This document shows, piece by piece, positions 1 through 18,384 of a stretch of 18,384 nucleotides of DNA (position 1 is the first letter of the stretch; every line of letters begins with the position of its first letter). The notes below the pieces were generated by a model. It saw only the letters and a list, made by a program, of their open reading frames with translations, had not been told where the DNA came from and made no database searches. The DNA is taken from assembly GCA_002686955.1 (NCBI GenBank), contig NYZA01000243.1:1-18384 (forward strand). The letters run 5' to 3'. This stretch comes from Gemmatimonadota bacterium. GTDB lineage: Bacteria; GCA-2686955. The position numbers were made by a program, and so were the translations under genes.

Positions 1-3000
1 CCGCCCATGAAGAGGCCTTTTCCGACGCTTCGGCGGCCTGGGAGCGGTCCTCCGGTGCGGCCTGTTCGCCCTTCGAGCGCAGCATGGCCAGCAAAGCGAG
101 AGGAGCGACGGGCTTCTGGAGGGTGTGGCAGGACCCGAGTTCGGTGCGGAGCTCTCCTCCCAGAGGGACCATGATCGCCAGTTTCGAGTGGCGGTGCGCC
201 GAGTGGCTTCGCAGTTTCGCCACCGCCGACGCCAGCCACGAGATCCCCTCCCGGTCATCGATGAGGATCCAGTCGCAGGGGTCGCCCAATCGAAGCGCCT
301 CCATGACCGATGCCGCCGTCCGCGCGGTTGCTCCGAGTTGCTCGACCTGCTCCCGCAACAACATTCGCATGGCATGGCTCGAGTCGATGATTAGCACCAC
401 GGTTTCGGGTGGGAGGGGTCGCGTGGGAACCAATGCGCCTCCTCCCAGCTCGACGCGGAACCAGAAGAGACTGCCGCGTCCTCGCGTGCTGTCGACTCCG
501 ATCTCGCCACCCATGCACGTGACGAGGCGCTGGCAGATCGTCAACCCCAGTCCGGTGCCACCGTAGCGACGGGTGAACGAGCTGTCTTCTTGGCGGAAGG
601 GCTCGAAAACCGTCAGCAACGCTTCCTCGTCGATGCCGATTCCCGAATCGACGACTTCGAAATAGAGCCCCACCCTTTCCGGTTCAGCACCCCACTCCGC
701 GCGCACCCGGACGATCACCTGCCCCTCGTCGGTGAACTTGATCGCGTTGCCGATGAGATTCATCAGAATCTGGCGCAATCGATGCGGATCACCGATCAGC
801 GAGACCGGAATACAGGGATCGATCGAGCAGCCGATATCGATTCCTCGCTCGGCGGCCTTTGGTGCCATCAACGAAACGATCGACACCACCAGATCGGAGC
901 AATCGAATCCCGTATCTTCGATCACGGTGCCCCCCGCCTCGATCTTCGATAGATCGAGCACGTCGTTGATGAGTGAGAGCAGGGTCGATCCCGAATCTTG
1001 TATCAGCTCCGCGCACTGTCTCTGATCGTTTGTCAGCTCGCCGTCGATCAGAAGCTCCGCCATTCCGAGCACACCGTTCATCGGCGTTCGGATTTCGTGG
1101 CTCATGGTCGCCAAGAATGCCGACTTCGCCGCGGCTGCCTGACGCGCATCGAGCACGGCCTGCTCGAGCGCGCGATTGGTCGTCTCCAGATGTTCTTCGC
1201 GGTCGACGAGCGCGCGCGTGCGCTCTACGACCTTAACTTCGAGCTCTCGATTCGTGCGTTCGACCCGTCTGATCTTCCGCCGGGCGACCCAACGCACCAG
1301 GACGATCGCGCACGCCGCCCCGAGCACTCGGAACCAGAGCCATTCCCAGAAAGGCGCTTCAACCGTGAAACGAACCCTCTCCGGCTTGAGAGAGGCGATC
1401 CCGTCGCTGTTCAGCGCTTCGACGAGGAAGGTGTACTCGCCTGGAGGCAGATTTGAGTAGGTCGCGTCGTTATCAGCCGTCGGTTCGAGCCAGTGCGGAT
1501 CGAAGCCGTCGAGCTTGTATCTGTATCTGATACCCTCGGGCGATCTCGTGGAGATTCCGACGAACTCGAACGCAACATGATTGCGATCGTAGGCCAGCAC
1601 GAGATCTTGCCGGATCTCGACCGCCTCGTATTCGACCTTCATGCCGGTCAGATGGATCTTCGGAGCAACTGGGTTTTCGCGATCGGCCGCCGCGTTGTAT
1701 CTGAAAGCGCCGCAGATCGTGCCGAACCAGAGCTGATGTTCGGAATCCTCGAAGGTTGCATGCACATTGGTTTCGATACCGGCAAACCCGTCTTCGCTAC
1801 CGAAGTGGGTGAATCGGCCCGGGTAGCCATCGTAACGATAAAGCCCCTTATTCGTTCCCACGAGCACTCGGTCATCGCGACCGACCGCAAGCAGATAGAC
1901 CAACTCCTCGGCGATTCTGCTCGAGCCGACGACATTCGTGAAGCGACCACGTTTGAAGAAGTAGACCCCCCCGTCGTCGGTGGCGATCCAGATCCTCCCC
2001 TTGCTGTCCTCGTCGATTCCGTTGAGCGATAGATGCTCCAGGCCGGCCGATTCCGCGTGAAAAGTGAAGCAACCGCTGTCACCCACGGCGTCCACCCGCA
2101 CGAATTCGCCCAGGCCCAGATCGGAGGTCGCGATCCAGATTCCACCCCGAGTGTCGGAAAAAACCTCGTATACACTCGTGTCGAACGAACCATCCATCAG
2201 TCGATAGGACTGAGTTGTTCCCAGCGTGCTGTCGGACGAGTCGAATGAGAAAGGCGGTGTGTAGCGAGCGACTCCGGCTTCGAAAAAGCCGATCCAGAGA
2301 TCGTCGCCATCGCCCGGCGCGAGGGCGAGCAGTTGATTGCTGGGCAGCCCCTGGTCTTCGGTCACTTTGAAGATCGACTGATCCTGGGGGTCGAAGCGGA
2401 TCAACCCCTCTCCGTCGGTAGCGAGCCAGAGCAATCCGTCGTCGTCGATATGAATGTCTCGAATGCTGTCGTCCGGCAGGCCGGTCTCGGTCGAGTAGAC
2501 GACGGTCTCGGCACCTCCCTCGCTCAATCTCGCGGGGGTGTAGCGAACGAGTCCGGCCTCCGTGCCGAACCAGAAGCGGCCCTCATCGTCCTCGGCTATC
2601 GCCCAGATCGCGCTCAGCTTCGGGTTCGGCGTATGGAGATAGGCTGTGAACGGACTGCCGTGATACAGCGAGACTCCCTGGCCGTCGGTCCCGAACCAGA
2701 TGTTCCCCTCTCGATCCTCCATCGCGGCCACCACGTCATCGACCGCCAGACCATCCCGAAGCGTGTAGGTGACCGGATCGCCGATCACCTCGTTCACCAG
2801 ATCGGGCCTGAATCTGATGACGCCGCCGCCGAGCGTGGAGACCCAGATCTGCTCCTCCGTCCCTTGCGAAACCGGCGTGATGGCGTACACCGGCTGGTCG
2901 GAAAGACCATGCTCAACGCCGAAAGGCCCCCGCCAGTCGGCGCTGGAGCCGTCCTCTCTCGGGCGCGGGTAGATCGACCCGTCGAGTGTGCCGATCCAGA

Positions 3001-3706
3001 ACGTCCCCCAGGCATCGACGGCCGAGGCGACGACCGGCACATCGGGCGATTCGATTCGAAAGCACCCCTGGGGATTCGCCCCGGGCTCGGTATCCGGGCC
3101 GAGCGGGAGGGAGTAGAGGCCCGAGCGCGTGCCGGCGAAGAGACGGTTGTCGAACTGGAGCAGGGTGAAGACCCAATCCCCGGGAAGCCCCGAATCGGGC
3201 ACGCTCTGAAGCCCGAGCTCGGGGTCGAAGTGCTGCAGCCCATCTCCATAAGTGCCGATCCAGATCCGTCCCCAGCGGTCTTCGAGCAGATCGAGGACCT
3301 CAGCGCCGTATGTGCCCTCCGGTTCCGCGAATGCCTCCCATCGATCGTCCTCGTAGCGGGAGAGTCCCCCCATCGGATGCCCGAACCAGAGCCGACCGTG
3401 CATGTCGACGAGGCCTGCCGAAAAACGGTTGCTCCGCAGCCCATCCTCGACCGTGTAGGTCTCGAACTCCCGTCCGTCGAAACGGGAAAGGCCGTACTCC
3501 GTGCCGAGCCAGACGTACCCATCGCGATCCTGAACGATCGCGCGAATCTGCGACTGGCTGAGCCCGTCATCCACACCGTACTGACGGAATACCGCCTGCT
3601 TCGCATCGGCCCTCAGCGCGGCGGCGAGGCACAGGCTCGTGGAGACCAGCACAGAACGGAATGTCGATCGACGTGTCAGCGCAGAGCCCTCCCCTGGCCC
3701 TTTCAA
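1..3706 (-). CDS. Reg_prop hybrid sensor histidine kinase (3' end beyond window)
   Basis: One-component/two-component hybrid signal transducer at the cytoplasmic membrane. It would sense an extracytoplasmic ligand, often a polysaccharide in this family, and autophosphorylate. About 1235 residues are visible in one unbroken frame. In order: a signal-peptide-like N-terminus (basic RRSTFR, then a hydrophobic stretch ending LRADA); ~residues 35-690 with many Reg_prop propeller blades ([44 protein letters not shown]); a Y_Y_Y domain ~700-765 ([18 protein letters not shown]); one membrane helix ~788-807; HisKA with [11 protein letters not shown]870; HATPase with N987 in [15 protein letters not shown] and GGTGLGL; and a receiver ~1097-1211. 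No ATG precedes the signal sequence. I chose TTG at 3706. A CTG at 3679 has a better Shine-Dalgarno (GGGAGG), so the start is uncertain. No stop is reached at base 1, so a second receiver or an HTH domain may follow. cutA lies 43 bp upstream on the same strand. Confidence 0.9.
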
Positions 3707-3749
3707 TCGGTCACGCCGTGGCGGGGAGTGAGCACTGCCCCGAGAAGAA

Positions 3750-4076
3750 TCAGCCCGCCCGGTCCGCCTTCCCGCAACGCTCGACCCACGCCACATAGTC
3801 GGGATCGCTCTGTTCGGCGTCGACCTCGAGCACCACGATCTCGACGGTCGAGTAGGGGTGGAGCTCACGGATTCGGTCCCCCAGCGCCGCCAGTCCGCTC
3901 CGGGCGACCTTGATCAGGAGGGTGTCTTCGCTCTCCTCCTCCAGCTTGCCCTCCCATTCGTAGAAAGAGCTGACCCCGCCGATCACATTGACGCATGCGG
4001 CGAGACCTTCGCGAATGAGCCGCCGGGCGATCGCTCGCGACTCGGCGGGCGGGCAGTTGCAGAGCACGACATTCAT
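3750..4076 (-). CDS. cutA: CutA family divalent-cation tolerance protein
   Basis: Small trimeric cytoplasmic protein of the CutA1 family, 108 residues, the usual length. It shows the family pattern: an N-terminal strand ([13 protein letters not shown]), the helix ending in GLAACVNVI, the [13 protein letters not shown] loop, DTLLIKV, and the hallmark HPYSTVEIV near the C-terminus. CutA was linked genetically to copper/divalent cation tolerance in E. coli; its biochemical role remains unclear. I chose the ATG at 4076 because homology begins there and AAGGTGG lies a suitable distance upstream. An ATG at 4160 in the same frame would add 28 residues unlike the family and would run into the divergent transporter. 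Its stop is 43 bp before the sensor kinase start, so the two may be co-transcribed. Confidence 0.93.
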
Positions 4077-6251: not shown

Positions 6252-8078
6252 TCAGTCTCCGGTTCCACCCTTGATGATCTGGAAGCTGTCGCTATCGATC
6301 ACCGATCCCGGAAAGGTGCCGATCTTGCCCGTGCCGACGTAGTCACCATCGGCCAGCTCGCCCTCCATCGGCAGGCTCGCCGTGCCGCTGATGGTCTGAT
6401 TGGCCGCCAGGGTCACATCGTGAGGTCCCGAGACGAGTCGCGAGCCACTGATCGTGGCCGTCGAGCCTTCGGCCCAGCCCTGGAAGTTCTGTGTCTGGTT
6501 CGACGTGTTGGTGACCGACCAGTCGAACTCGACCGTTCCTCCTTCGCTGGGCACCAGAACCGGATCGCTGATCGGATCGAGCTCGACAGAGAGCCCGGTC
6601 GCGCCACCCAGGTAGTCGAGAGCGGCGACGACATCGATTCGGCCGGTTCCGTAGGTGTTGTCTTCACCAGCGGCGCCGAGATCGACGGCCGTGTTCAGCA
6701 AGGCTTCCTTGATCTCTTCCGGAGTAGATTGGGGAGATCCGCTCCGAAGCAGCGCAACGGCGCCAGCGACGTGCGGGCAGGCCATCGACGTTCCCGAGAG
6801 GGTGCCGTAGCCGCCTCCATCGACCGACGAGCGAACATTGTCACCGCGCGCCGTGACCTCGGGCTTGATGGTCGAATTGTCGCAGCCGGAGGGTCCGCGG
6901 CTCGAGAAAGAGGCGATGCTGTTGCTTCCCGCCACGAGGGCGCCGACCGCGAACACGTTGGTGTCGCTCGCGATGCGGTCCGCGGGAGTTCGCAAGGTCT
7001 TCGAGCCCGGTCCTTCGTTCCCTGCCGCGTACACGACCGCCGCGCCCGAAGCCTCGCAGTTGTCGATCACGTTCCAAAAAGTGTTGTCGCAATGGGGAAC
7101 ACCGTGCCAGATCGGAGAGATGCCCCAGGAGTTGTTCACGACTGCCGGAACGTCGTCGCTGGTGAAGGGATCGCCGTCGGGATCGGCGAACCACTGGAAG
7201 GCGAGGATCGCATCGGCGATGGTCCGGTCGATGCTCACCCGGTCGATCACCGCCGCGGCGATCCACTCGGCTCCCGGCGCCATACCGATCTGATTGGAGC
7301 CGCTCGAACCGCACATCGTTCCCAGTGTGTGGGTGCCGTGGCTGCCCCACCAGGCGAACTCGACCGGGAAGGTCGTGTTGGTTACCGGGTCGAACCAGCA
7401 CTGCGCCGCGGGCTTGCGGAGCCCGAGGTAACGACTGGCGAAGGCGGGATGATCGCCATCCGCTCCGGTGTCCATGTCGCCGACAATGGTCCCGCTGCCG
7501 TCGACGCCCAGAGCCCAGAGCTCGGGCGCGCGCGTCGAGGCCACACCCTCTTCGATCGTGAGCAAGGTCGGCTGGCCGAATCCCGTGGATGCGCCGGCCG
7601 CCTCGGAGACTGCGTCTACCTCGAGATCATCCACCGGTTCGATCAGCGAGATCGGGTAGTTCGGGTAGACGATATCGACATCGTGGCGAGTCGCCATCGC
7701 CTCGATCGTCTCTTTGGTGGCCGTCACGATGACGCCGTTGGTGATCCACAGGGGCTGGTAATCGAGGACCGCCTCGGTCATCAGGCCTTGATCGAGTCGC
7801 TCCAGAAGAGCGGCCTGGTCCGTGCGTGAGATCTCTCGAAGTCGGGTCACGGCCTCGACATGTCTTTCGTGCAGGTTCTTGCCCTCGGTCTTCATCTCAG
7901 CCACGAAGCCGTCTTTGTCGAGCTGATCGGGGAGCATGACGATGACCCGCACGAGATCGTTCGAGTCGGCGCCCTGGAGCTGCTCCGCCAGGTCGGGGCT
8001 GAGGACTCCCGCGTGGGCGGCCATTGTGGCCGCGCAGAGGGCGAAGGCGGGGAAGTGAGCGCTGAAGTATTTTGGCAT
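6252..8078 (-). CDS. Secreted subtilisin-like serine protease (S8), shorter paralog
   Basis: Exported endopeptidase of the S8 subtilase family, bacillopeptidase F-like, 608 residues. A Sec signal peptide (residues 1-23, ending AAHA before GVLS) is followed by an I9-type propeptide (~24-145, LVRVIVMLPDQ to IVYPNYPISL) and the catalytic domain (~180-490). The full machinery is present: D203 in DMDTG, H247 in SHGTHTLGT, oxyanion-hole N354 in AAGNEGPG, and nucleophile S431 in SGTSMACPHVAG. The last ~115 residues are a beta-rich domain ending in KGGTGD, with no sorting signal. The start ATG has CGGAGG 5 nt upstream. It lies 117 bp downstream of a close paralog on the same strand and is followed by a terminator hairpin, so it is probably the last gene of a two-gene unit. 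Confidence 0.93.
   Translation of the reverse strand: MPKYFSAHFPAFALCAATMAAHAGVLSPDLAEQLQGADSNDLVRVIVMLPDQLDKDGFVAEMKTEGKNLHERHVEAVTRLREISRTDQAALLERLDQGLMTEAVLDYQPLWITNGVIVTATKETIEAMATRHDVDIVYPNYPISLIEPVDDLEVDAVSEAAGASTGFGQPTLLTIEEGVASTRAPELWALGVDGSGTIVGDMDTGADGDHPAFASRYLGLRKPAAQCWFDPVTNTTFPVEFAWWGSHGTHTLGTMCGSSGSNQIGMAPGAEWIAAAVIDRVSIDRTIADAILAFQWFADPDGDPFTSDDVPAVVNNSWGISPIWHGVPHCDNTFWNVIDNCEASGAAVVYAAGNEGPGSKTLRTPADRIASDTNVFAVGALVAGSNSIASFSSRGPSGCDNSTIKPEVTARGDNVRSSVDGGGYGTLSGTSMACPHVAGAVALLRSGSPQSTPEEIKEALLNTAVDLGAAGEDNTYGTGRIDVVAALDYLGGATGLSVELDPISDPVLVPSEGGTVEFDWSVTNTSNQTQNFQGWAEGSTATISGSRLVSGPHDVTLAANQTISGTASLPMEGELADGDYVGTGKIGTFPGSVIDSDSFQIIKGGTGD
6603..7553 (-). repeat. Duplicated protease catalytic segment, copy 1
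   Basis: Region encoding the S8 catalytic domain (from EEG before STRAPELWAL to LDYLGG) that recurs with high nucleotide and protein similarity at 8967-9914 in direct orientation. Long identical peptides include TGADGDHPAFASRYLGLRKP and VVNNSWGISPIWHGVPHC. The copies differ in length by one codon. Confidence 0.8.
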
Positions 8079-8169
8079 CGAGGCCTCCGAAACAAGGAAA
8101 CGCGCCCGGACGCGCGCTTGCGCTGGGTGGGGGGGAGGTGGGGGCCTCGATCCGATCGACCAAGACCCC

Positions 8170-8192
8170 TACGAGGCCATGGTAACCTCGTA
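8170..8192 (-). other. Stem-loop between the two protease genes
   Basis: TACGAGG and CCTCGTA form a perfect 7-bp stem with a 9-nt loop, starting 3 bp past the stop codon of the upstream protease. No T-tract follows on the minus strand, so it is a weak terminator or a processing/stability hairpin. The rest of the 117-bp spacer is GC-rich and shows no clear promoter. Confidence 0.4.
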
Positions 8193-8195
8193 TTC

Positions 8196-10439
8196 TTAGG
8201 GCGCGCTCCATGCCAGATCGTCGAGCGTGTGGCCGAGGTGCCAGAGGCTACGGCCTTTCACCTTGAGCATAGAGATACCCGATGCGCTGAACACGATCGG
8301 AAGATCTTCGCCGCCGGCGGTCGTGATCTCTTCGAGCACCGTGCCGACGCTGTCGTAGGCGGTGTAGGCGTAGCCGTCGCTGTACCCCGTGTTGCACGAT
8401 ACGAAGAGCTGAAGATCGTCGATCGGCGAGCCCCAGCGGATCCAATTGTTGGTCTCGTGCGTGAAAACGACGTTCGGAAGGCTGTGCGGAGGATACTGGC
8501 TGTTCCCATCGGCATTCCAGACCGTCCATCCAGGCGAGAAACTGACTCCCGGGACCTGGCCCGCGACCGGCGAGCCATCTTCGAGATCATCGAAATCGAT
8601 CACGATCGGAGGAAGGTCGCCTTTGAGGATTCGGAAGGCGTCGGAGTCGGCGACATGACCGGTGTACTCTCCGACCTCGGCCCTTAGCCAGTAGTAGCCG
8701 TCCGGAACCGAACCGTTCATCCATTCCGGTTTCGATATGCGTGCCGATCCGGTTTCGATCTCCAGGGGGCCCAAGGTATCGTTCGCGGGACCCCAGACGA
8801 GCCGGTCGATTCCGCCGTCCGGGGTGGCCATGAGCCACTCCTCGAAGAGCTCTTCCTGCTCGCCCTCGTTGGTCAAGGTCCAGTCGAAGTCGACGGGACC
8901 ACCGGCGCTCGGTACGCGAAGCGGATCGGTTGCGGGATCGATCGACACCAGGATTTGACCGCCGGCGCCGCCGAGGTAGTCCAGCGCCGCGACCACGTCG
9001 ATCCGTCCCATCCCGTATGTGTTGTCCTCTCCCGCCGAGCCGAGGTCGACGGCCGTATTGAGCAGCGCCTCCTTGAGCTCTTCGGGAGTGGCGTCAGGCC
9101 GCGCGCTCTTCAACAGAGCAACCGCACCCGCAACGTGGGGAGAGGCCATCGACGTTCCCGAGAGGGTTCCGTAGCCGCCGCCGTCGACCGAAGATCTGAC
9201 ATCGTCGCCGCGAGCGGTAACCTCGGGTTTGATCGTTGCGTTGTCGCAGCCGGAAGGACCTCGGCTCGAAAAGGAGGCGATGTCGTTGCTGCCGGAAAGA
9301 AGCGCACCGACCGAGAACACTGTCGTCGCGCCGGCGATACGATCGGCCGGCGTGCGAAGCGTCTTCGATCCCGGTCCTTCATTGCCGGCGGCGAAGACGA
9401 CTGCGGCTCCGGCTGCCTCACAATTGTCGATCGAATTCCAAAATGTGTTGTCGCAATGGGGCACACCGTGCCAAATCGGCGAGATCCCCCACGAGTTGTT
9501 CACGACCGCCGGAACATCGTCGCTGGTGAAGGGGTCGCCATCGGGATCGGCGAACCACTCGAACGACAGGATCGCATCGGCGATTGTTCGCTCGATGCTG
9601 ACTCGATCGATCACGGCGGCCGCGATCCACTCGGCTCCGGGAGCCATGCCGATCTGGTTGGTACCCTCGGAGCCGCACATCGTTCCCAGAGTATGGGTAC
9701 CGTGGCTGACCCAACCGAACTCCACCGGGAAGGTCGTGTTGGTCACGGGATCGAACCAGCACTGGGACGCCGGCTTTCTGAGCCCCAAGTAGCGGCTCGC
9801 GAAGGCGGGATGGTCGCCGTCGGCACCGGTATCCATGTCGGCGACGATCGCGCCCGTTCCGTCGAAACCCAATGCCCAGAGCTCAGGGGCGCGGGTCGAG
9901 GAGATCCCCTCCTCCACTCCCAGCGCGGCCGGCGGGGTCGAGCCGGTGGCCTGGTCCACGTCGAGGTTTCGATCGTCGACTTTCATCTCCTCGATCGGAT
10001 CGATCAGTGAAATCGGATAGTCCGGGTAGACGATCTCTACATCGGTCCGGTTCGCGATCGACCGCAGAGTGCGCTCGGTCGCCGTGACGATGACCCCGTT
10101 GGTGATCCAAAGGGGTCGATAATCGGTCACTTCGTCGGCCAGCAGTTGCAGATTCAACCAGTTCACTAGATCCTGCTGGCGGCTTCGTGAGAGTGTCCTC
10201 AGGCGGGTCACCGCCTCGATGTGGCGCTGGTGCATGTTCCTGTCGTTCGAGCGCATCTCTTCCACGAATCCCGCCTTGTCGAACTGATCGGGAAGCATGA
10301 CGATGGCCCGCACGAGATCGTCCGCGTTCGCTCCCCGCATCTGCTCCTCGAGATCGGGACTCAGGATGCCGGCGGACGCGTTGCTCGAAAACGCCGCGGC
10401 AAGAGCGGTCAGGGCGAAGGGTGTGAGAGTTCGTGACAT
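8196..10439 (-). CDS. Secreted subtilisin-like serine protease (S8) with extra C-terminal beta domain
   Basis: Paralog of the downstream protease, 747 residues. Sec signal peptide 1-23 (ending NASA before GILS), I9-type propeptide ~24-145, and S8 catalytic domain ~180-490 with D203 (DMDTG), H246 (SHGTHTLGT), N353 (AAGNEGPG) and S430 (SGTSMASPHVAG). The catalytic domain is nearly collinear with the paralog: one residue is missing before the His motif (GWVSHG here, AWWGSHG there). After a shared ~110-residue beta module ending in KGD, it carries ~130 further residues absent from the paralog. That part starts with VIDFDDLEDGSPV, contains SLPNVVF and ends LDDLAWSAP; it looks like a jelly-roll or lectin-like adhesion domain, though this is inference. 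The ATG has AGGA about 8 nt upstream. The gene is divergent from ackA across 178 bp. Confidence 0.93.
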   Translation of the reverse strand: MSRTLTPFALTALAAAFSSNASAGILSPDLEEQMRGANADDLVRAIVMLPDQFDKAGFVEEMRSNDRNMHQRHIEAVTRLRTLSRSRQQDLVNWLNLQLLADEVTDYRPLWITNGVIVTATERTLRSIANRTDVEIVYPDYPISLIDPIEEMKVDDRNLDVDQATGSTPPAALGVEEGISSTRAPELWALGFDGTGAIVADMDTGADGDHPAFASRYLGLRKPASQCWFDPVTNTTFPVEFGWVSHGTHTLGTMCGSEGTNQIGMAPGAEWIAAAVIDRVSIERTIADAILSFEWFADPDGDPFTSDDVPAVVNNSWGISPIWHGVPHCDNTFWNSIDNCEAAGAAVVFAAGNEGPGSKTLRTPADRIAGATTVFSVGALLSGSNDIASFSSRGPSGCDNATIKPEVTARGDDVRSSVDGGGYGTLSGTSMASPHVAGAVALLKSARPDATPEELKEALLNTAVDLGSAGEDNTYGMGRIDVVAALDYLGGAGGQILVSIDPATDPLRVPSAGGPVDFDWTLTNEGEQEELFEEWLMATPDGGIDRLVWGPANDTLGPLEIETGSARISKPEWMNGSVPDGYYWLRAEVGEYTGHVADSDAFRILKGDLPPIVIDFDDLEDGSPVAGQVPGVSFSPGWTVWNADGNSQYPPHSLPNVVFTHETNNWIRWGSPIDDLQLFVSCNTGYSDGYAYTAYDSVGTVLEEITTAGGEDLPIVFSASGISMLKVKGRSLWHLGHTLDDLAWSAP
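8967..9914 (-). repeat. Duplicated protease catalytic segment, copy 2
   Basis: Partner of the segment at 6603-7553, same orientation, inside the longer protease gene. Divergence is spread mostly over synonymous positions. Recombination between the copies would delete about 2.4 kb and fuse the two genes in frame. Confidence 0.8.
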
Positions 10440-10617: not shown

Positions 10618-12054
10618 ATGCGAATCCTGGTGCTCAATTCCGGCAGCTCTTCCGTCAAATTCCAGATCCTCGATATGGAGGACCAGTCGGTTCTTCTGAA
10701 AGGGATCGTGGAGCGCATCGGGTCGACGAGGGCGGTTCTCTCCTATCAGCCCTCGGAAGGCCACAAGATTAGCGATGTGCGTGAGGTGCTCGACCAAGAC
10801 GCCGCGCTTCGATTGATCGTTCAGACCATTACGAAACCGGAGCTCGGTGTTATCGCGAGCACCGATGAGCTCGATGGCGTCGGCCACAGGGTCGTGCACG
10901 GGGGCGAGGAGTTTTCCGAATCGGTCGAGATCGACGAGCGGGTCACGGAGGCGATCGCCCGCTGCGCGCAATTCGCGCCTCTTCACAATCCACCGAATCT
11001 CAGAGGAATCGAAGTCTGTCGGAATCTGATGCCGGGTACGCCTCAGGTGGCGGTCTTCGACACTGCGTTTCACAATCAGATGCCGGCACGGGCCTACCTC
11101 TACGGTCTGCCGCTCTCGCTCTATAGACTCTTGGGCATTCGGCGCTACGGTTTTCACGGCACTTCGCACAAATATGTCGCTGGAAGGGCGGCGGAGCTTC
11201 TTGGGCGGCCGCTCGACGGATCGAAGCTCATCACTTGCCATCTCGGAAACGGAGCGAGTATCTCGGCGATCGAAGCGGGAGTATCGATCGATACTAGCAT
11301 GGGGTTCACTCCGCTCGAGGGCCTGGTCATGGGGACGCGGTGCGGCGACATCGATCCGGCCATCGTCTCCTATCTGATGCAATCGGAGAAGCTCTCGGCT
11401 CGCGAAGTCGAAGCGCTGATGAACGAGCAGTCGGGGCTACTCGGACTGACCGAAACCACCAACGATATTCGTGAAATCCTCGAGGAATCGGAACGCGGGA
11501 GTCAGGCCCACGTCCTCGCGCTTTCGGTCTACACCTATCGAGTGAAGAAATACATCGGTGCGTACCTGTCCGCGTTGGGTGGCACCGATGCGATCGTGTT
11601 CACCGGGGGCGTGGGTGAGAACGCTCCGGCGGTCAGGGCGATGATCCTGGATGGCTTCGAATACTGCGGCATCGAGATCGACTCGGAGCTCAACGAGAAG
11701 AACGAACCGATCGTTTCGATCGGGACGCCCGCGGTGCTGATCGTTCCTACCAACGAGGAGCTTGCAATCGCTCAGGATACGCTTCGAGTTCTGCGCGAGG
11801 CGAGCGCGAACGCGGGGGAAGTGGGCGGCGCCGAACGCGCGAGAGAGGAGATCGCGCGGATCACACCGAATCAGAAGGCGCAGCTGATTCTGCTCTGGGC
11901 GAGCAACCCCGACGACTCACTCGCCGAGGTGGCACGGAAGTTCAACAATCGATTCCAATCGAGCTTCTCGGCCGAAGCGATCGGGACCTTCCTGTCTGAG
12001 ATCGGGCTGCTCGATGCAGAGGCACCGAAGGAAGAGGACAGTATTCATGTCTGA
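10618..12054 (+). CDS. ackA: Acetate kinase with a C-terminal helical extension
   Basis: Catalyses acetate + ATP to acetyl phosphate + ADP, reversibly; with phosphotransacetylase this gives ATP from acetyl-CoA in the cytoplasm. Residues 1-395 are a complete ASKHA-fold acetate kinase. Visible conserved residues, by analogy with the Methanosarcina enzyme, are N7, S10, S12 and K14 (NSGSSSVKF), R91 (GHRVVHGGE), H123, D148 (VFDTAFH), H180 (GFHGTSH), R241 (MGTRCGDIDP), the GGVGENA loop and E381 (PTNEEL). Usual length is ~400; this protein is 478. The extra ~75 residues (about 402-478) are predicted mostly helical (REEIARITPNQKAQLILLWA, then SLAEVARKFNNRF, then AEAIGTFLSEIGLLD) with the look of a small HTH-like or interaction domain. 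The next gene starts 8 nt before this stop, so translation is coupled. No pta is present in the window. Confidence 0.95.
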   Translation: MRILVLNSGSSSVKFQILDMEDQSVLLKGIVERIGSTRAVLSYQPSEGHKISDVREVLDQDAALRLIVQTITKPELGVIASTDELDGVGHRVVHGGEEFSESVEIDERVTEAIARCAQFAPLHNPPNLRGIEVCRNLMPGTPQVAVFDTAFHNQMPARAYLYGLPLSLYRLLGIRRYGFHGTSHKYVAGRAAELLGRPLDGSKLITCHLGNGASISAIEAGVSIDTSMGFTPLEGLVMGTRCGDIDPAIVSYLMQSEKLSAREVEALMNEQSGLLGLTETTNDIREILEESERGSQAHVLALSVYTYRVKKYIGAYLSALGGTDAIVFTGGVGENAPAVRAMILDGFEYCGIEIDSELNEKNEPIVSIGTPAVLIVPTNEELAIAQDTLRVLREASANAGEVGGAERAREEIARITPNQKAQLILLWASNPDDSLAEVARKFNNRFQSSFSAEAIGTFLSEIGLLDAEAPKEEDSIHV

Positions 12055-12541
12055 GCTCAAAAAGGACGAGGTGGGTTGGGTGCTCTCGCGCATCTGGCTG
12101 GATGCACTCGAAGAGACAGCGCGCGATTTTCACGGCAATTGGCCGAAGATGTTCTGTTCGAGAGCGTACGAGCATGCGACCGACACCTGGATGAAGGTGA
12201 TGGCCAACGAGTACGATCTCGATGCGCGGCCGGAAACCACGATCGTGGGGGCGTTGGGCAGCTATGTCGATCTTGGGGTCAAGGCAGGGCTCTTCACGAG
12301 TCATTCCGATTTCAGAATCGAGGCTCTGAGCCCGAACAAGACAGAGGTAACGGTCTTCGAATGTCCTTATCGAAAGCCCTGTATGGACCTGATCGAGAGC
12401 GGTTTTTCCGTCAGCGATCTCACCTGCGCTCGCATCGGGTGTTTTCGCGCGGCGGTGAAGAGCATTTCGGGCGTCGAGTGCGACTACGAGGTGACGAGAT
12501 TCAGCAGCGAAGCCTGTGAAGGTTTCGTGGAGCGGATCTAG
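12047..12541 (+). CDS. Cysteine-rich V4R / ATC-hydrolase-like small protein
   Basis: Cytoplasmic protein of 164 residues with no signal peptide. The C-terminal half has a layout seen in V4R (4-vinyl-reductase, hydrocarbon-binding) and L-2-amino-thiazoline-4-carboxylate hydrolase-like domains: VTVFECPYRKPC, a downstream C-x4-C (C127, C132) in a helix, and a final SSEACEGFVERI that matches the C-x-F ending. Cysteines are C37, C106, C112, C127, C132, C145 and C157. Such domains bind small molecules or metal, and in V4R proteins act as sensors. No catalytic assignment is made. The ATG at 12047 overlaps the ackA stop by 8 nt and has AAGAGGA 8 nt upstream; an in-frame ATG at 12014 inside ackA is less likely. 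The HEAT-repeat gene follows after 5 nt. Confidence 0.8.
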   Translation: MSELKKDEVGWVLSRIWLDALEETARDFHGNWPKMFCSRAYEHATDTWMKVMANEYDLDARPETTIVGALGSYVDLGVKAGLFTSHSDFRIEALSPNKTEVTVFECPYRKPCMDLIESGFSVSDLTCARIGCFRAAVKSISGVECDYEVTRFSSEACEGFVERI

Positions 12542-12546
12542 AGCCC

Positions 12547-14382
12547 ATGAGTGCTACGAACAACGATATTTCTCATCGTATCGAGGATGCGGTCGACTGG
12601 CGCGGTCGACGGCGGGCCGCGATCGAGCTGGGCTGGGAAAAGCCGGCGGGAGCATATGGACTGCTCGTTCGACTTCTGCGCGATCAGGTGCTCGAGGTTC
12701 GACAGGCGGCGGTCTTCTCTCTGGGACGACTCGGCGATTATCGCGCGATCCGAGAGCTGACGGTGCCGAAGATCCTCTCGTCGAAGGAACCGGTCATGCG
12801 ACTGGCGGCCACCGGAGCGATCGGCGAGCTGGGCGGCATGGAGGTGGTCCCGCCGCTCGCCGAGAAGCTCTCCGATCCCGAATGGACGGTGCGCCTCAGA
12901 GCTGACGAGATCGTGACCGAAAAGCTCTCGGCGCTCAGTCGATCGGTCGACGGCGACACGGTGCAGATGCTGATACGACTGCTCGACCTGGAGCACAAGG
13001 AGGTCCGCAAGACGATCATCGCCACGATCAGCAAGATCGGCAACCTCGACTACGATCAAATCTTCCGTGCACTCAAGGGGGGCAGTCCGCGGATTCAGAC
13101 TGGACTGATCGAGATTCTCGGGAACATCGGCTACGGCGGATTCACGCCGGTCTTGCTGGAGCATCTCGGGCAGGGCAGCCGCTTCCATCAGATCGCGAGC
13201 GCCAGAGCTCTGGGTAGGATCAGAAGTGTGAGCGCGATCGAAGGCTTGGTTGCCGCCCTGGATTCCTATCATCAAGAGGTTGCGCTGGAGGTGAGCGCGG
13301 CGCTCGTGGAGATCGGTGATCCCTCCGTCGACACCCTGCTCGAGGCTCTGGCGCACACGACGAAGAAGCACTACCAGATTCACCTCATCCGCGGTCTCGG
13401 CAGAATCGGCGCACCACGCTCGATCCCCGCATTGATCGCGGCGTTGTCGAACAGCTACTCGTTGATTCGCAGATTCGCGGTGGAGGCGCTCTCCGCCTTC
13501 GACCCGGCCGATGTGATCGATCCTCTTCTCGAGCTCGTCAATCTCCGCGAAGTACCGATCGACGACATCATCAGCGATCTCGACAGCGACGACAACAAGG
13601 TCCGCTGGATCAGGGCGGTCCGTGCGCTCGGAGAGATCGGAAGCCATCGCGCCGTGCCGACACTGAAACGCTTGCTGTCCTTGGTAGATCACGGCAAGAT
13701 CCATGTTGAGATCGAAGATGCGCTCTGCAAGATCGGGTGTAGCTCGTGGGCGCGGGCCGGCGCGGTTCAAGTGCTCGAAAACCTGGGTGACAAGCGGGCA
13801 ATCGACGCAATTCTCAAGCTCGTTTCCGATGAATCGTACTACGTGCGTCATACGGCCGTAGTGGCGCTCAGACGTTTTCGCAGCGAACGGATCATTCCGG
13901 TTTTGCTCCGCGCGATGAGCAGCGATCGTCGGTACTTCGTACGGGCGCAGGCCGCCACTACCTTGGGAGGGCACTGGACCGACCGGGACGACATTTTCTT
14001 CGCTTGCATGAAGGCGGCCCAGGAAGATACGAGCTTCTCCGTAAGGGCCGATGCGCTGAGAGTGCTTGCAAGATACATGGATCGTCGTTCGCTGCCGGTT
14101 CTGCTGGAAGGGCTGGGCGACGAGCGATTCAGCGTGCGGGAGAACGCAGCTTATGCCCTCGAGAATCTCGGCCCGAGTGCTCTGCCCGAGGTGGCGGAAA
14201 AGCTGCGATCGAGTGACGAGATCGTGAGAATCCGCGCACTGAGAATTCTCGCGAAGATCCGCGACGCGAAAGCTCTCGAGCTGATCGAGGATGTCGCCGA
14301 TGGAAATAGCGACACTCAGGTTGTCGTGGTGGAAGCCAGGATGGCGGCTCGAAACCTGCGCCGGCGCCTCGACGAAGGATAG
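12547..14382 (+). CDS. HEAT-repeat protein
   Basis: Cytoplasmic solenoid protein of 611 residues built almost wholly of paired-helix HEAT/PBS-lyase-like repeats, roughly 15-18. The repeating signature is a VR.xA..ALG.(L/I)G segment followed by a helix with a proline-containing turn: EVRQAAVFSLGRLGD, MRLAATGAIGELGG, IQTGLIEILGNIGY, VRWIRAVRALGEIGS, VRHTAVVALRRF, VRENAAYALENLG. No catalytic motif, signal peptide or membrane helix is visible. Repeats of this kind act as protein-binding scaffolds or, in some cyanobacterial and archaeal proteins, as chromophore-lyase-like partners. Being the third gene of the ackA unit, 5 nt after the V4R-like gene, suggests a shared role, for example as scaffold for these two proteins. 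Its stop is 1 bp from the stop of the convergent aldo/keto reductase, leaving no space for a separate terminator. Confidence 0.92.
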   Translation: MSATNNDISHRIEDAVDWRGRRRAAIELGWEKPAGAYGLLVRLLRDQVLEVRQAAVFSLGRLGDYRAIRELTVPKILSSKEPVMRLAATGAIGELGGMEVVPPLAEKLSDPEWTVRLRADEIVTEKLSALSRSVDGDTVQMLIRLLDLEHKEVRKTIIATISKIGNLDYDQIFRALKGGSPRIQTGLIEILGNIGYGGFTPVLLEHLGQGSRFHQIASARALGRIRSVSAIEGLVAALDSYHQEVALEVSAALVEIGDPSVDTLLEALAHTTKKHYQIHLIRGLGRIGAPRSIPALIAALSNSYSLIRRFAVEALSAFDPADVIDPLLELVNLREVPIDDIISDLDSDDNKVRWIRAVRALGEIGSHRAVPTLKRLLSLVDHGKIHVEIEDALCKIGCSSWARAGAVQVLENLGDKRAIDAILKLVSDESYYVRHTAVVALRRFRSERIIPVLLRAMSSDRRYFVRAQAATTLGGHWTDRDDIFFACMKAAQEDTSFSVRADALRVLARYMDRRSLPVLLEGLGDERFSVRENAAYALENLGPSALPEVAEKLRSSDEIVRIRALRILAKIRDAKALELIEDVADGNSDTQVVVVEARMAARNLRRRLDEG

Positions 14383-14383
14383 G

Positions 14384-15592
14384 TCAGACGGCGGCGTCGC
14401 CGAGCAGATGGCGCGCCAGCGCCATCCGTGATGGAATGTCGATCCCGCGTGGGCACGCGGACCGCGCGCGAGCGAAATCCACTGAACCGCTGCCGCGCTC
14501 TTGGTCGCTCAATTCGGCGTAAAGCGTGCGCGCTCGCTCCGGCTCCCCGTAGCACTCGCTGTACATGAGATAGCGAAGTGTATCGGCGATACGAACCCCT
14601 CCACCCGCCTCCGGCTCGCAGAAGTGTGAGCACCCCAAGCAGTGAAGCGAAGCGTATTCCCGGTCGACGCGTCGAAGCTCCTGAATATCGTGCATGGAGA
14701 GCCGCACCGGCGACTTGGCCGCCGCGACATTCTCCGCGAGCTTGGCGGTGTTGTCGATATGGGAGCAGATGGAGCTGATCCGCTCATCGGCCCAGACCGC
14801 CTTCAGTTTGGCCTGTGGCAGTGTGAAGTTCTTCGAGGAGAAGCCAACGGCTTTCTCGCTCTTTTCCGGAACCGATTCGATGGTTTTCATCGCGATCAGG
14901 CCGATGCCCGATTCGATACAAGCATCGATCGCACGATTCAGCGCGAGATCACCGTATCGCGCAAAGCTGTAGCGGAACATGATCGCATCGATGCCGCCCA
15001 CCTTCGCGGCCTTCTCGAGGAGCTCCGCCACGCGATCACCGTGAGTCGAGAAACCGAAGAAGCGGGTCTTCCCACTCTTGCGCAGGGCTTCTCCCATTCG
15101 AATATAGTCCGGCTCCAATAGGGCGAGATCATCGATCTGATGCATGAAATACAGGTCGAGATGGTCAACCCTGAGCTCTTCGATACAGCGATCGAGCCCG
15201 GCTGTATAGGCTGCGACCGAGGGCCGACCGGCCGACTCCTTCGAAGTGAGCCAGATCTTGTCTCGGCCACCGATCTGCGGAAGGAAGTTGGCGATTCCGC
15301 GGTGAGAGGCGCCTTCGGCGTAGACCCGCGCGGTATCGAAGTAGTCGATCCCCTCGGCGAAGGCCCGGTGCAGAAGCTTGTCGTAAGTCGGATCGAACGA
15401 CTGTGCACAGCCCAAATTGAGGATTGGAACTTTGGCCCCAGTCCTTCCCAGCTTTCGCCTTGGGATATCGCGGGCGAGCTTTTCCGACCACAGGTCCTGC
15501 GCGCTCGCCTTCTGATCGGGAGCCGAAAGACCCACCGCGGCGCCAGCCAGCGTCACCGATTTCAGGAATCCTCGTCTCGATGATCGGTCCAT
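14384..15592 (-). CDS. Tat-exported aldo/keto reductase with C-terminal cysteine cluster
   Basis: Probable periplasmic oxidoreductase of the AKR family, 402 residues. A Tat signal (SSRRGFLKSV, residues 4-13, hydrophobic to ~30) precedes the TIM barrel (~45-300). The canonical AKR tetrad is intact: D86 (FDTARVY), Y91, K118 (LTSKE) and H151 (YFMHQID). The C-terminal ~90 residues hold C318-x2-C321-x3-C325, then C347 and C380 in ACPRGIDIP. This resembles the 4Fe-4S extension of iron-sulfur AKRs (C-x2-C-x2/3-C...CP.GIDIP), but the cysteines are more dispersed. An NAD(P)H enzyme exported through Tat is unusual; redox input from the adjacent membrane ferredoxin is an attractive idea but inference. 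ATG 15592 has AGAGGA upstream. It lies 16 bp after the polyferredoxin gene. Confidence 0.9.
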   Translation of the reverse strand: MDRSSRRGFLKSVTLAGAAVGLSAPDQKASAQDLWSEKLARDIPRRKLGRTGAKVPILNLGCAQSFDPTYDKLLHRAFAEGIDYFDTARVYAEGASHRGIANFLPQIGGRDKIWLTSKESAGRPSVAAYTAGLDRCIEELRVDHLDLYFMHQIDDLALLEPDYIRMGEALRKSGKTRFFGFSTHGDRVAELLEKAAKVGGIDAIMFRYSFARYGDLALNRAIDACIESGIGLIAMKTIESVPEKSEKAVGFSSKNFTLPQAKLKAVWADERISSICSHIDNTAKLAENVAAAKSPVRLSMHDIQELRRVDREYASLHCLGCSHFCEPEAGGGVRIADTLRYLMYSECYGEPERARTLYAELSDQERGSGSVDFARARSACPRGIDIPSRMALARHLLGDAAV

Positions 15593-15608
15593 GCTCGGTC
15601 CTCTCTAT

Positions 15609-17255
15609 CTATGATCCGTATGCTCGCCCGCGGTCTTCCAGCAGCAATCCACGGGCTCGCGATCGTGTTTCGCCTACGGCGGTCACGTACACCGCCGGCG
15701 CGTCGGTCACCGGGCATTCGTTCTGGCAGATCCCGCATCCGATGCACAGATCCGGAACGATGAACGGTTTGTTCAGCACGACGATCTTCCCGAAGACATC
15801 CTTGATCTCTTCGTCGACCGTTCGAATCGCTTTCGGGGCGACGGGGCAGACCTCTTCGCAGACTACGCAGGGAATCTCCATGGCGTGAGGGAGACAGCGT
15901 CCCAGGTCGTAGAAGGCCGTGCCTAGCCGAATCGGCCCCGCGTCTTTATGAGGCCCCTTGCCCAGCTTCTCCGCGACGGTGATTCGGCGAATCGCTCCGG
16001 TCGGACAGACCTCTCCGCACAGATTACACTTGAGCTGGCAATGCCCGATATTGAAGTTCATCACGGGCGTCCAGAGAGCCTCGAAGCCACCCTCAGCGGT
16101 CGTCGCCGGCTGCAACACATTTGTAGGGCAGACGTTGATGCACTGATCACATTTGATACATCTCGACAGGAATTCCCCCTCCTCGACCGAGCCGGGGGGA
16201 CGGATCATCCTGGGCGAGTAGTTGCTGTCGGTGCCGAGGCCGTGCGTCTTGAGAAATGGGAATGTGAGGAGGCCGAACAATCCGGAGAACACGAGCTTCC
16301 TGCGCCCGAGGTCAGTGCTGGTGAAGACCTGTTTCATATCCTGTCCCAAGAACGTGTAGCTGAGAGCATCTTCGGGACAGTCGTCGATGCAGTTCATGCA
16401 AGCGAAGCACTCGGCGGAACGCAAAACGCTCTGCGGCTCCGCGGCGCCTTCGCATCGCGTGAGACAGGCATCGCAATCGGTACATTCCTTCACATCACGG
16501 TTGATTCGAAAAAGACTGAACCGAGACAGAAATCCAAGTAGAGCACCGAGAGGGCAAAGCACGCGACAGAAGAACCGCGGAATCACCAGGTTCATCCCGA
16601 GCAGGACGACGAGAAGCGCACCGATCCAGAAGGAGCCCACGAAAACACGCCGCTCGGTATTCGGTGCGAATCTGATCGCGTTGGTCCAGTTGGCGTCGAC
16701 GCCGGCCTGTTCGATGGAACCGGCGAGGGCATCCACACCCATGTCGGACGCGGGAGCAAGAGAAGCGCTAACGCTTCTCGACAGCAGACAGATCGGATCG
16801 AGCAGTCCGATCTGCAGGGCTCCGAATCCCGCGAGGATCAGCAGACCGGCGAGAAGTCCGTATTTCAAGGCATAGAGCGGGCGATATCGATTCGACCGTC
16901 GCCGGAGTTTGAGCGGCAAGATGTTGAAGATCCACGCCGCGAACTGATGGAGGGTTCCGAAGGGGCAGATCCAATTGCAGAAGGCGCGTCCAAAGAGCAA
17001 TGTGATCGCCAGGAGCGAGAGCCCCCACGCGAGGTGGCGATAAAGGCGGCCCGTCGCAAGTGCGGTAGAGACGCCGACGAGGAGATCGATCTCCAGAAAA
17101 CGGGAGACCGGATACCCTCCGAGGCGGGTGGTCCACGTCGCCCAGAGTCCCAAAAGGAAGACCGACAGGAAGAAGGTCTGCGCTACGATTCGGATGTTCG
17201 TTGCTCTGAGAAGTCGCCGAGTGGCGCCGAGCTCAGCGGGCTCGGAAGATGTCAC
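15609..17255 (-). CDS. NapH-NapG-like fused membrane polyferredoxin
   Basis: Membrane iron-sulfur protein, 548 residues. Residues ~20-250 are a NapH/MauN/NosR-C-like membrane part with about four to five helices and the paired C-x3-CP motifs FCNWICPFG (C93, C97) and FCRVLCPLG (C230, C234). Two 4Fe-4S segments follow ([11 protein letters not shown] and [12 protein letters not shown], 258-293). Then comes an internal twin-arginine hydrophobic segment ([20 protein letters not shown], 317-335). After it lies a NapG/MauM-like ferredoxin starting [21 protein letters not shown], with further clusters at 406-417, 463-470 and 504-514. It probably moves electrons from quinol or cytosolic donors to periplasmic acceptors. 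I chose GTG 17255, which overlaps the DUF362 stop as GTGA and has AAGGAA 5-6 nt upstream; the frame stays open to 17681, but that extension is an out-of-frame reading of DUF362. Confidence 0.9.
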
Positions 17256-18289
17256 GACACTTCCTTGACTCGACCCGCGAGCTCGGCTCTGCCCGACCCC
17301 TTCTCTTCGGCGCGGCGCAGGTACTCCGGCAGGGGGGAGGTGCGGTCGAGGAGGTGTCGGTGACACCATGCATCGATCGCGACCGGATCGACACCAGCGA
17401 CAACGCAGTCGGTGCCGCGAACATCGCCCAGGTCGCCGCCGGTCGGCCCGCCCCGCATCAAGACTCGGCTCCCATCGACAATCGACAGTGTCGGCCGCAT
17501 CAGAAGCGCCAAATCGGAGACGATCTCGTGGATGTTCTGATGAAAGCGATTGCGTTGGCCGCCGAGCAAACCGTACCAGTTCTTGATGCCGATCGAGGCG
17601 CCGCAGAGATTGTGGTCCTTCGCCGGTGCCACGCCGATGACCTTGTCTACATTGGTGAGCGGACGGTGGAAGACAGGCCATGCGCCGATCAGCGCGGCCC
17701 CCGGTGTTTCGACCACACGGAAGGCGTTCGAGTCGGGCAAATAGACCCGCCCACCTGCGCGCTCGACCGCCTGGCGAACGCCGCTTTTGTGGAAGCAGTC
17801 CGCGGGCGATTCGATCGGGTTGTCGGCGACCCGTACCTCTTGCGCCCGACAGTCGACCAAGAGCATGCGGATGATCGATGCCAGGATCTCCGGCCCGGTC
17901 GTCGCGCCCAGAATCGCGGCGCGATCGAAAGCGACGTTCGGTTTGACCAGCACGATCTCTCCGGGGGCGACGAAATGGCGCAATCCGCCCAGCCCGTCCA
18001 GGGCTTTGCGCAGTCGGGTGTCCGGCTCCCCATCCCTCCCGATCGCCACGGGTGAGATGGCGGCGGGCACCGGAACGGAGAAATCGGCCAGACGGAGGGG
18101 AGGATCGGTCCGTCGGCGCCTCGATCCGGTCGGATCTCGAATCCCCAGCGGCGAGTCTTCGGGCGCGGTTGCCATATAGGTCGCACCGGATCCGATTCCC
18201 AGCGCGCCGGCGATTCGCCCGACGAAGGCTCGCCTACTAAGCGGTGCCTTGACATAGCTTTGGATCGATTCCGCAGGGTCAGATCTCAA
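17252..18289 (-). CDS. Tat-exported DUF362 protein
   Basis: Protein of 345 residues with a Tat signal (LSRRAFVGR, residues 18-26, followed by a hydrophobic [16 protein letters not shown]) and a DUF362 domain (PF04015). Visible DUF362 features are [10 protein letters not shown] near the start, ATTGPEIL, the [16 protein letters not shown] segment, [18 protein letters not shown] and [10 protein letters not shown] with a cysteine-containing [15 protein letters not shown] at the end. DUF362 proteins often occur with 4Fe-4S ferredoxins; the biochemical role is not settled. I prefer the TTG start at 18289, with AGGAGG 9 nt upstream and an 11-nt overlap with the upstream gene. ATG at 18334 or 18319 would also keep the frame but overlap that gene by 40-56 nt. 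Its stop overlaps the next GTG by 4 nt, a sign of translational coupling. Confidence 0.85.
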
Positions 18290-18384
18290 GGCGGATGGCC
18301 TCCTCGAGGCGACCCGCATCGCGTTCAGCCGCATCGCGATCGGGTGCGCGTTCGACTCCGTAGAGGATCGGACCGATTCGGCTC
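18279..18384 (-). CDS. C-terminus of an unidentified upstream protein (partial)
   Basis: Open reading frame entering from the right edge and ending at TGA 18281-18279. The visible 34 residues (SRIGPILYGV, then a charged helix [19 protein letters not shown]) look like a real protein C-terminus rather than random sequence. Its end overlaps the preferred DUF362 start by 11 nt and supplies its Shine-Dalgarno (GAGGAGG). Too short to identify. It is probably the first or an earlier gene of the Tat redox operon. Confidence 0.55.
   Translation of the reverse strand, partial: SRIGPILYGVERAPDRDAAERDAGRLEEAIRLEI

Follow-up and report, generated by a model that had tools for sequence, protein, structure and literature searches.

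To our knowledge, the nickel-pincer cofactor (NPN) has so far been known solely from lactate racemase (LarA) and its close relatives, which catalyse redox-neutral isomerisation. In LarA, K184 is the NPN tether, H200 is a nickel ligand and H174 is one of two catalytic histidines (PMC7583248, PMC12611868); NPN has a mass of 449 Da (PMC12611868). DUF362 proteins, which belong to the same Pfam clan, were used in a LarA study solely as outgroup (PMC11770544). Quinol-dehydrogenase ferredoxins of the NapH-NapG and MauN-MauM type combine CxxxCP motifs in a membrane part with a twin-arginine polyferredoxin. Typical aldo/keto reductases (AKRs) have a barrel domain with a catalytic tetrad, whose chemistry normally requires a hydride donor. 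Here we analyse an operon in which a DUF362 protein, a NapH/NapG-like polyferredoxin and an AKR are encoded side by side; in the literature searched we found neither a description of this operon nor a cofactor assigned to DUF362.

The window, 18,384 bp, is the entire contig NYZA01000243.1, one of 270 contigs in an 84.5% complete MAG. Its minus strand carries three complete genes and an upstream gene cut by the contig end, which stops the upstream reading (Table 1). The tight spacing described in the initial annotation was reproduced when the frames were remapped: the stop codon of the upstream gene at 18281-18279 leaves an 11-nt overlap with the DUF362 gene, which overlaps the polyferredoxin gene by 4 nt, and 16 nt separate the latter from the AKR gene. 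The TTG start of DUF362 is favoured by its relatives and by the 11-nt overlap, and a longer version from ATG 18334 is possible; DUF362 residue numbers are counted from ATG 18334. The cut gene, proposed earlier as a target for identification, probably encodes a DUF6599 protein and does not point to an unrelated operon. Its 34-residue tail, the only part of this protein in the window that can be compared, scores 58 against the best DUF6599 C terminus (maximum of 38 in 300 shuffles) and less against the other top DUF6599 matches, still above all shuffles, and the upstream genes of relatives match DUF6599 (PF20244). In relatives this protein is membrane-anchored. A fold search with DUF6599 returned LolA/TP0453/RseB-like matches only, which were weak, with low TM-scores, and gave no functional lead.

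Table 1. Features of the operon in the window (positions on the 18,384-bp contig).
Feature	Position	Strand	Remark
Upstream gene, probable DUF6599: last 34 codons and stop	18279..18383	-	Cut by contig end
DUF362 protein (PF04015), predicted Tat-exported, LarA-like fold	17252..18289	-	Start TTG 18289
DUF362 Tat signal	18161..18247	-	R34-R35 invariant in 39 sequences
DUF362 H241-x9-K251-N-x12-H265	17540..17614	-	Counterpart of LarA H174/K184/H200
NapH/NapG-like polyferredoxin fusion, 548 aa	15609..17255	-	Start GTG 17255
Polyferredoxin internal twin-arginine segment, between NapH-like and NapG-like parts	16236..16307	-	
Aldo/keto reductase (AKR), predicted Tat-exported, C-terminal Cys site	14384..15592	-	
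AKR Tat signal peptide	15497..15592	-	TIGR01409 22.1 bits, cut-off 16.7
AKR C318-x2-C321-x3-C325 ... C380-P, probable [4Fe-4S] site	14453..14641	-	Invariant in 87 sequences

The cluster is not a chance arrangement, because its gene order recurs across phyla. In the co-occurrence survey of DUF362, the NapH-G fusion and the Tat-AKR that the initial annotation had called for, linkage holds: AKR relatives adjoin DUF362 and the polyferredoxin in 45 of 64 assessable loci, with all four genes present in 40, over many phyla from Acidobacteria to sulfate reducers (genomes G013 and G024 are among those linked). Reordered, AKR-first versions also occur. A DUF362 of this kind is encoded, for instance, in Solidesulfovibrio aerotolerans DSM 16695 (L077:4909-6084). 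At 14 of the 64 loci a Tat-AKR stands without other cluster genes nearby. Unlinked homologs lacking Tat signals had been named as evidence against a common module; unlinked homologs do exist, but these orphan AKRs retain the Tat signal. More generally, the reported N-terminal Tat signals of two products and the internal one of the third were borne out by conservation of the twin arginine, which is found in 39 of 39 DUF362 sequences compared, in all 85 AKRs with a complete N terminus (R6-R7) and, internally, in 47 of 49 polyferredoxins. From these conserved signals, DUF362 and AKR appear to be Tat-exported, and the genome encodes TatC. Cluster conservation, Tat signals and motifs, all read from sequence, support a single functional module that would be exported and, by NapH/NapG homology, quinone-linked.

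The polyferredoxin matches Fer4_5 and other Fer4 domains in Pfam. Along the protein, predicted hydrophobic helices are combined with two CxxxCP motifs and two CxxCxxCxxxC motifs, followed by the internal Tat-like signal and four further Cys motifs. It thus shares the membrane-part CxxxCP and the twin-arginine polyferredoxin of NapH-NapG and MauN-MauM, but unlike these it is a single fused protein, it remains below the NCBIfam cut-offs (87.4 versus 213 for the NapH family and 78.9 versus 269 for NapG), and no nitrate reductase or methylamine genes lie near the operon.

The AKR has the family domain (Aldo_ket_red, PF00248; 62.6 bits, cut-off 24) and its tetrad, of which D86, K118 and H151 are invariant and Y91 is present in 86 of 87 sequences. 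Unlike typical AKRs, it has gained an export signal and a C-terminal Cys site, occurs in tandem copies in some operons, and has lost the Lys/Arg that anchor the 2'-phosphate of NADPH in aligned AKRs: in the 87 sequences, position 278 is mostly Q, H or E and position 281 mostly N, S or T. The adenine-side N288 is invariant. One may argue that an NAD(P) bound tightly to the AKR is loaded before export and is re-reduced or re-oxidised by the clusters, with DUF362 in a side role. Glucose-fructose oxidoreductase has a tightly bound NAD(P) loaded in this way, Tat transports folded proteins with their cofactor bound, and the (near-)invariant tetrad together with N288 would fit such a protein. However, the replacement of the 2'-phosphate anchors argues against it, and the conserved DUF362 would be left unexplained; we consider this explanation decidedly unlikely.

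DUF362 is the component for which a cofactor can be proposed. The protein (128 bits in Pfam) has a predicted structure with a pLDDT of 88.7, which matches LarA structures with Z of 14.3-16.4 over about 200 residues (rmsd 2.7-3.3), while the best unrelated fold reaches Z 5.7. K251, H265 and H241 are invariant in 39 DUF362 sequences. At the sequence level, the window's DUF362 does not match Lar_N (PF09861) even at E 10, searches of PDB sequences with the single sequence and with a profile gave chance matches only, and direct hhalign comparison of operon DUF362 with LarA is insignificant, with only a weak N-terminal pairing; hence the link to LarA runs via the fold and via intermediate DUF362 sequences. 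These intermediates are members of the same Pfam family with an inserted ferredoxin, which match Lar_N at about positions 143-196 (E 4.5e-5 to 1e-3), have the exact LarA-like H-x9-K-x15-H motif and align with LarA gap-free over H174-x9-K184-x15-H200 (39% identity, 51 columns). They in turn align with operon DUF362 at H241/K251, whereas H265 is placed by motif only, in a loop two residues shorter than that of LarA. They hold two [4Fe-4S] clusters within the polypeptide, whereas in the operon the clusters are on separate proteins.

Operon DUF362 has in common with LarA the fold of the NPN-binding N-terminal domain, the equivalents of H174/K184/H200 and co-occurrence with larC. Unlike LarA, it has a Tat signal, lacks the C-terminal domain and belongs to a respiratory operon, a setting different from that of the LarA isomerisation. 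It also has no counterpart of LarA R75 and H108: no His is found at the position of H108, the other catalytic histidine, and the D72/R75 positions correspond to N133/F136 in an hhalign pairing that is itself weak. The initial annotation had cast DUF362 as a possible iron-sulfur carrier or maturation partner, which would insert clusters into the AKR or the polyferredoxin. The gene neighbourhood is the evidence for this, along with the ferredoxin domains of some other DUF362 proteins, but the operon type has neither an invariant cysteine (39 sequences) nor a ferredoxin domain, and in its core the predicted LarA fold is combined with the Lys/His pattern of NPN tethering. We regard a maturation role as highly improbable.

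To assess whether DUF362 goes together with NPN synthesis, we compared gene content in 116 genomes, nearly all chosen as one per family, which is the sole phylogenetic correction of the p values below. DUF362 is found in 62 of these genomes and larC in 57, with a strong association between them (both, DUF362 only, LarC only, neither: 46/16/11/43; p=5e-9), as strong as that of LarA with LarC (p=5e-7). The association holds where LarA is absent (15/10/6/39, p=8.6e-5). It also holds where PFOR is present (p=1.8e-7; AKR control p=0.27), although PFOR, found in 106 of the 116 genomes, is near-ubiquitous and hardly discriminates as an anaerobe control. Among genomes with the operon, 17 of 20 have larC, and these 17 comprise each of the six that gave no Lar_N match. 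The window's genome has larB-larC and larE; larA was not detected in it, and at 84.5% completeness may have been missed. At single loci, larB-larC directly follows the operon (L033), larE-B-C has a DUF362 with an export signal in its vicinity where the genome shows no LarA (L187), and 72 nt separate larB from a Tat DUF362 (L219). Adjacency of larBC to DUF362 was seen at three loci only, and to LarA at 0 of 58. Weak DUF362 matches near larC (24-30 bits) were left out as likely ferredoxin-domain cross-matches. Rhomboid and other neighbours had been suspected to be LarE or LarB and were found not to be.

The same data bear on a module that works with iron-sulfur clusters only, in which the AKR would reduce its substrate via its own cluster with electrons from the polyferredoxin, and DUF362 would be a non-catalytic LarA relative that serves substrate binding or assembly without NPN. 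The invariant Cys site of the AKR and the missing R75 and H108 are in its favour, as are DUF362 proteins in genomes without detected LarC: 10 of the 116 genomes have DUF362 with neither LarC nor LarA, and in two of them (G117 and G126) it bears the full motif. On the other hand, a Lys and two His kept invariant at the NPN-tether and nickel positions, the strong co-occurrence with LarC and the hydride donor that tetrad chemistry normally needs all speak against it, and we judge this alternative possible but doubtful.

We thus favour, with a probability of about 50%, an oxidoreductase assembly that serves respiration and is located outside the inner membrane, in which a LarA-like NPN-binding DUF362 and the AKR act on a hydroxy/oxo substrate and exchange electrons with quinone. 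The module probably holds the rare nickel cofactor. We infer that DUF362 would be loaded in the cytoplasm with NPN made by LarB, LarE and LarC and then exported folded by Tat, with K251 as the tether and H265 as a nickel ligand. The polyferredoxin may exchange electrons with quinone, in one direction or the other, via its NapH-like membrane part and pass them via its NapG-like clusters outside the membrane, and the AKR, with its tetrad kept, its NADPH anchors lost and a cluster site gained, would handle the substrate together with DUF362. DUF6599 might anchor or organise the assembly.

A bolder extension, rather unlikely in our view, is that the nickel-pincer enzymes have a second and larger branch, the DUF362 proteins, which perform net redox chemistry. 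The exported one would then be the first of the NPN enzymes to work outside the cytoplasm, and its tethered pyridinium, charged from the quinone pool via the polyferredoxin, would replace NADPH for the partner AKR. About half of the 116 genomes carry larC, and in 21 of these 57 no confident LarA match was obtained, which leaves room for other users of the cofactor. For the widespread DUF362 family, NPN binding, if true, would name missing clients of the cofactor; the operon would then be a case of an exported cofactor coupled to respiration instead of isomerisation.

The order of the DUF362, polyferredoxin and aldo/keto reductase (AKR) genes, with their overlaps and gap, was seen as the initial annotation describes it, in a fragmented genome in which the window spans one entire contig (see table). 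The truncated upstream gene, left unnamed there, is probably DUF6599: the short C-terminal fragment in the window resembles DUF6599 C-termini more closely than 300 shuffles do, and the gene at the same upstream position in relatives is DUF6599 (PF20244). At its other end the operon is closed by a HEAT-repeat gene.

Operon genes and other features of the window
Feature	Position	Strand	Remarks
Upstream gene, last 34 codons	18383-18279	minus	rest cut by contig end; 11-nt overlap with DUF362
DUF362	TTG 18289 to 17252	minus	
Polyferredoxin	GTG 17255 to 15609	minus	4-nt overlap with DUF362
AKR	15592 to 14384	minus	16-nt gap after polyferredoxin
HEAT-repeat gene	12547-14382	plus	tail to tail with AKR; 611 aa; repeats similar to phycobilin-lyase repeats
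Acetate kinase	within 10618-14382	plus	about 90 additional C-terminal residues
175-aa protein	within 10618-14382	plus	no Pfam match
Two subtilisin-family proteases	6252-10439	minus	in tandem; 69% identity over 604 residues; C-termini differ
Large sensor kinase	2-3868	minus	two-component-regulator propeller repeats, Y_Y_Y domain, HisKA, HATPase_c

With the AKR as query, one search of genome contigs found 79 loci, distributed over Acidobacteria, Planctomycetota, Hydrogenedentota, Desulfobacterota, Verrucomicrobia, Lentisphaerae, Sumerlaeota/BRC1 and others. The linkage proposed in the initial annotation holds for most of the 64 loci whose neighbourhood can be judged: DUF362 and polyferredoxin lie beside the AKR in 45, and all four genes occur together in 40; the AKR lacks these partners in 14, and five have partial sets. 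In a few Desulfobacterota (L073, L076, L080, partly L071) the AKR comes first, thus the linkage outlives rearrangement. Tandem AKRs, in two or three copies, occur at L047, L048, L052, L062, L079 and L103, and a one-per-family sample added two genomes with the complete operon (L180, L181). Solitary Tat-exported AKR relatives with no DUF362 or polyferredoxin nearby are found in Hydrogenedentota and similar MAGs (L049, L051, L053-L058).

The operon DUF362 (numbered from ATG 18334) is a relative of the lactate racemase LarA. DUF362 and LarA's DUF2088 share one Pfam clan (PMC11770544), and LarA structures match the predicted DUF362 model (pLDDT 88.7) with Z 14.3-16.4 over LarA residues ~35-270, the best unrelated fold reaching Z 5.7. 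LarA uses K184 to tether the nickel-pincer nucleotide (NPN) and H200 as a nickel ligand, with H108 and H174 as catalytic residues (PMC7583248, PMC12611868). In DUF362 proteins with a ferredoxin insert, the Lar_N match covers exactly the H174-K184-H200 stretch, and these proteins align gap-free with LarA over H174-x9-K184-x15-H200 (39% identity, 51 columns). When they are in turn aligned to the operon protein, H174 falls on H241 and K184 on K251. H265 then follows K251 with a loop two residues shorter than LarA's and, by its place in the motif, best corresponds to H200. The four further DUF362 paralogues checked, from this genome and its family-level relative, all retain H-x9-K-N with a downstream His. 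Among the 39 DUF362 sequences compared, the invariant residues include N133, D171, K239, H241, K251, N252, H265, Q266 and D287, and no cysteine is among them. In contrast to LarA, the operon protein lacks equivalents of R75 and H108 as well as the C-terminal domain, and thus falls outside LarA's own definition. Two-cluster-ferredoxin DUF362 proteins with an exact H-x9-K-x15-H occur in G031, G045, G057, G097, G098, G117, G123 and G126 (L171-L178). Since ferredoxin-insert proteins weakly match Lar_N, searches with this profile can miscount them as LarA.

The NPN biosynthesis gene larC served as a genomic test of the cofactor. In a sample of 116 genomes, chosen with few exceptions one per family, 46 had both DUF362 and larC, 16 DUF362 only, 11 larC only and 43 neither (p=5e-9; p values not phylogeny-corrected), an association as strong as that of LarA with larC. 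Weak hits to Lar_N, mostly in DUF362 genes, were left out of the LarA counts. The association persists in LarA-negative genomes (15/10/6/39 in the same order, p=8.6e-5) and PFOR-positive genomes (p=1.8e-7), while the presence of any AKR, scored as a control in the first 60 genomes, was not linked to larC in this way (p=0.27). DUF362 occurs without both larC and LarA in 10 of the 116, two of these with the full LarA-like Lys/His motif, and the cofactor may vary between DUF362 subfamilies. The window's genome carries larB-larC and larE (308 bits), and LarA was not found in its 84.5% complete assembly. Of 20 genomes with the operon or the AKR, 17 carry larC, including all six without a Lar_N match; the remaining three all have LarA homologues, so incomplete assembly is a likely reason for the missing larC. 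In a Holophagae locus (L033), larB and larC, the only copies found there, directly follow the operon. A signal- and motif-bearing DUF362 lies 3.4 kb from larE-larB-larC in G113 (L187, G113:C28), where no LarA was detected, and 72 nt separate larB from the start of a Tat DUF362 in G107. LarA itself was adjacent to larC in none of 58 larC neighbourhoods, hence non-adjacency tells little.

Twin arginines are present in 39/39 DUF362 sequences and in 85/85 AKRs with a complete N terminus. The AKR tetrad is retained (D86, K118 and H151 invariant, Y91 in 86/87), and C318, C321, C325 and C380-P are invariant. In the AKR superfamily, a Lys and an Arg hold the 2'-phosphate of NADPH. By alignment to solved AKRs, these correspond to positions 278, mainly Q/H/E, and 281, mainly N/S/T; N288 is retained. 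The NapH-like part of the polyferredoxin combines predicted hydrophobic helices with two CxxxCP motifs; two CxxCxxCxxxC motifs come next, followed by an internal twin-arginine segment (47/49) and four further, NapG-like Cys motifs.

In the proposed mechanism, in which nickel, NPN, export and protein interaction are all putative, NPN would be synthesised and loaded into DUF362 in the cytoplasm; Tat would then export the folded holoprotein, consistent with the invariant Tat signal. Outside the membrane, quinone and polyferredoxin would supply the electron path, and the AKR, without its usual NADPH anchors, would act where NADPH is absent. NPN itself is a pyridinium hydride carrier. Net redox chemistry at the putative NPN site would fit the ferredoxin insert of DUF362 relatives, which comes within a few residues after the H200 equivalent. 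LarA's active site is closed by a domain that is missing from DUF362, so the site there may be completed by a partner protein; that the AKR is this partner is our own, rather unlikely, proposal. The chemistry of LarA and of AKRs suggests, by analogy only, 2-hydroxy or sugar acids as candidate substrates of the module.
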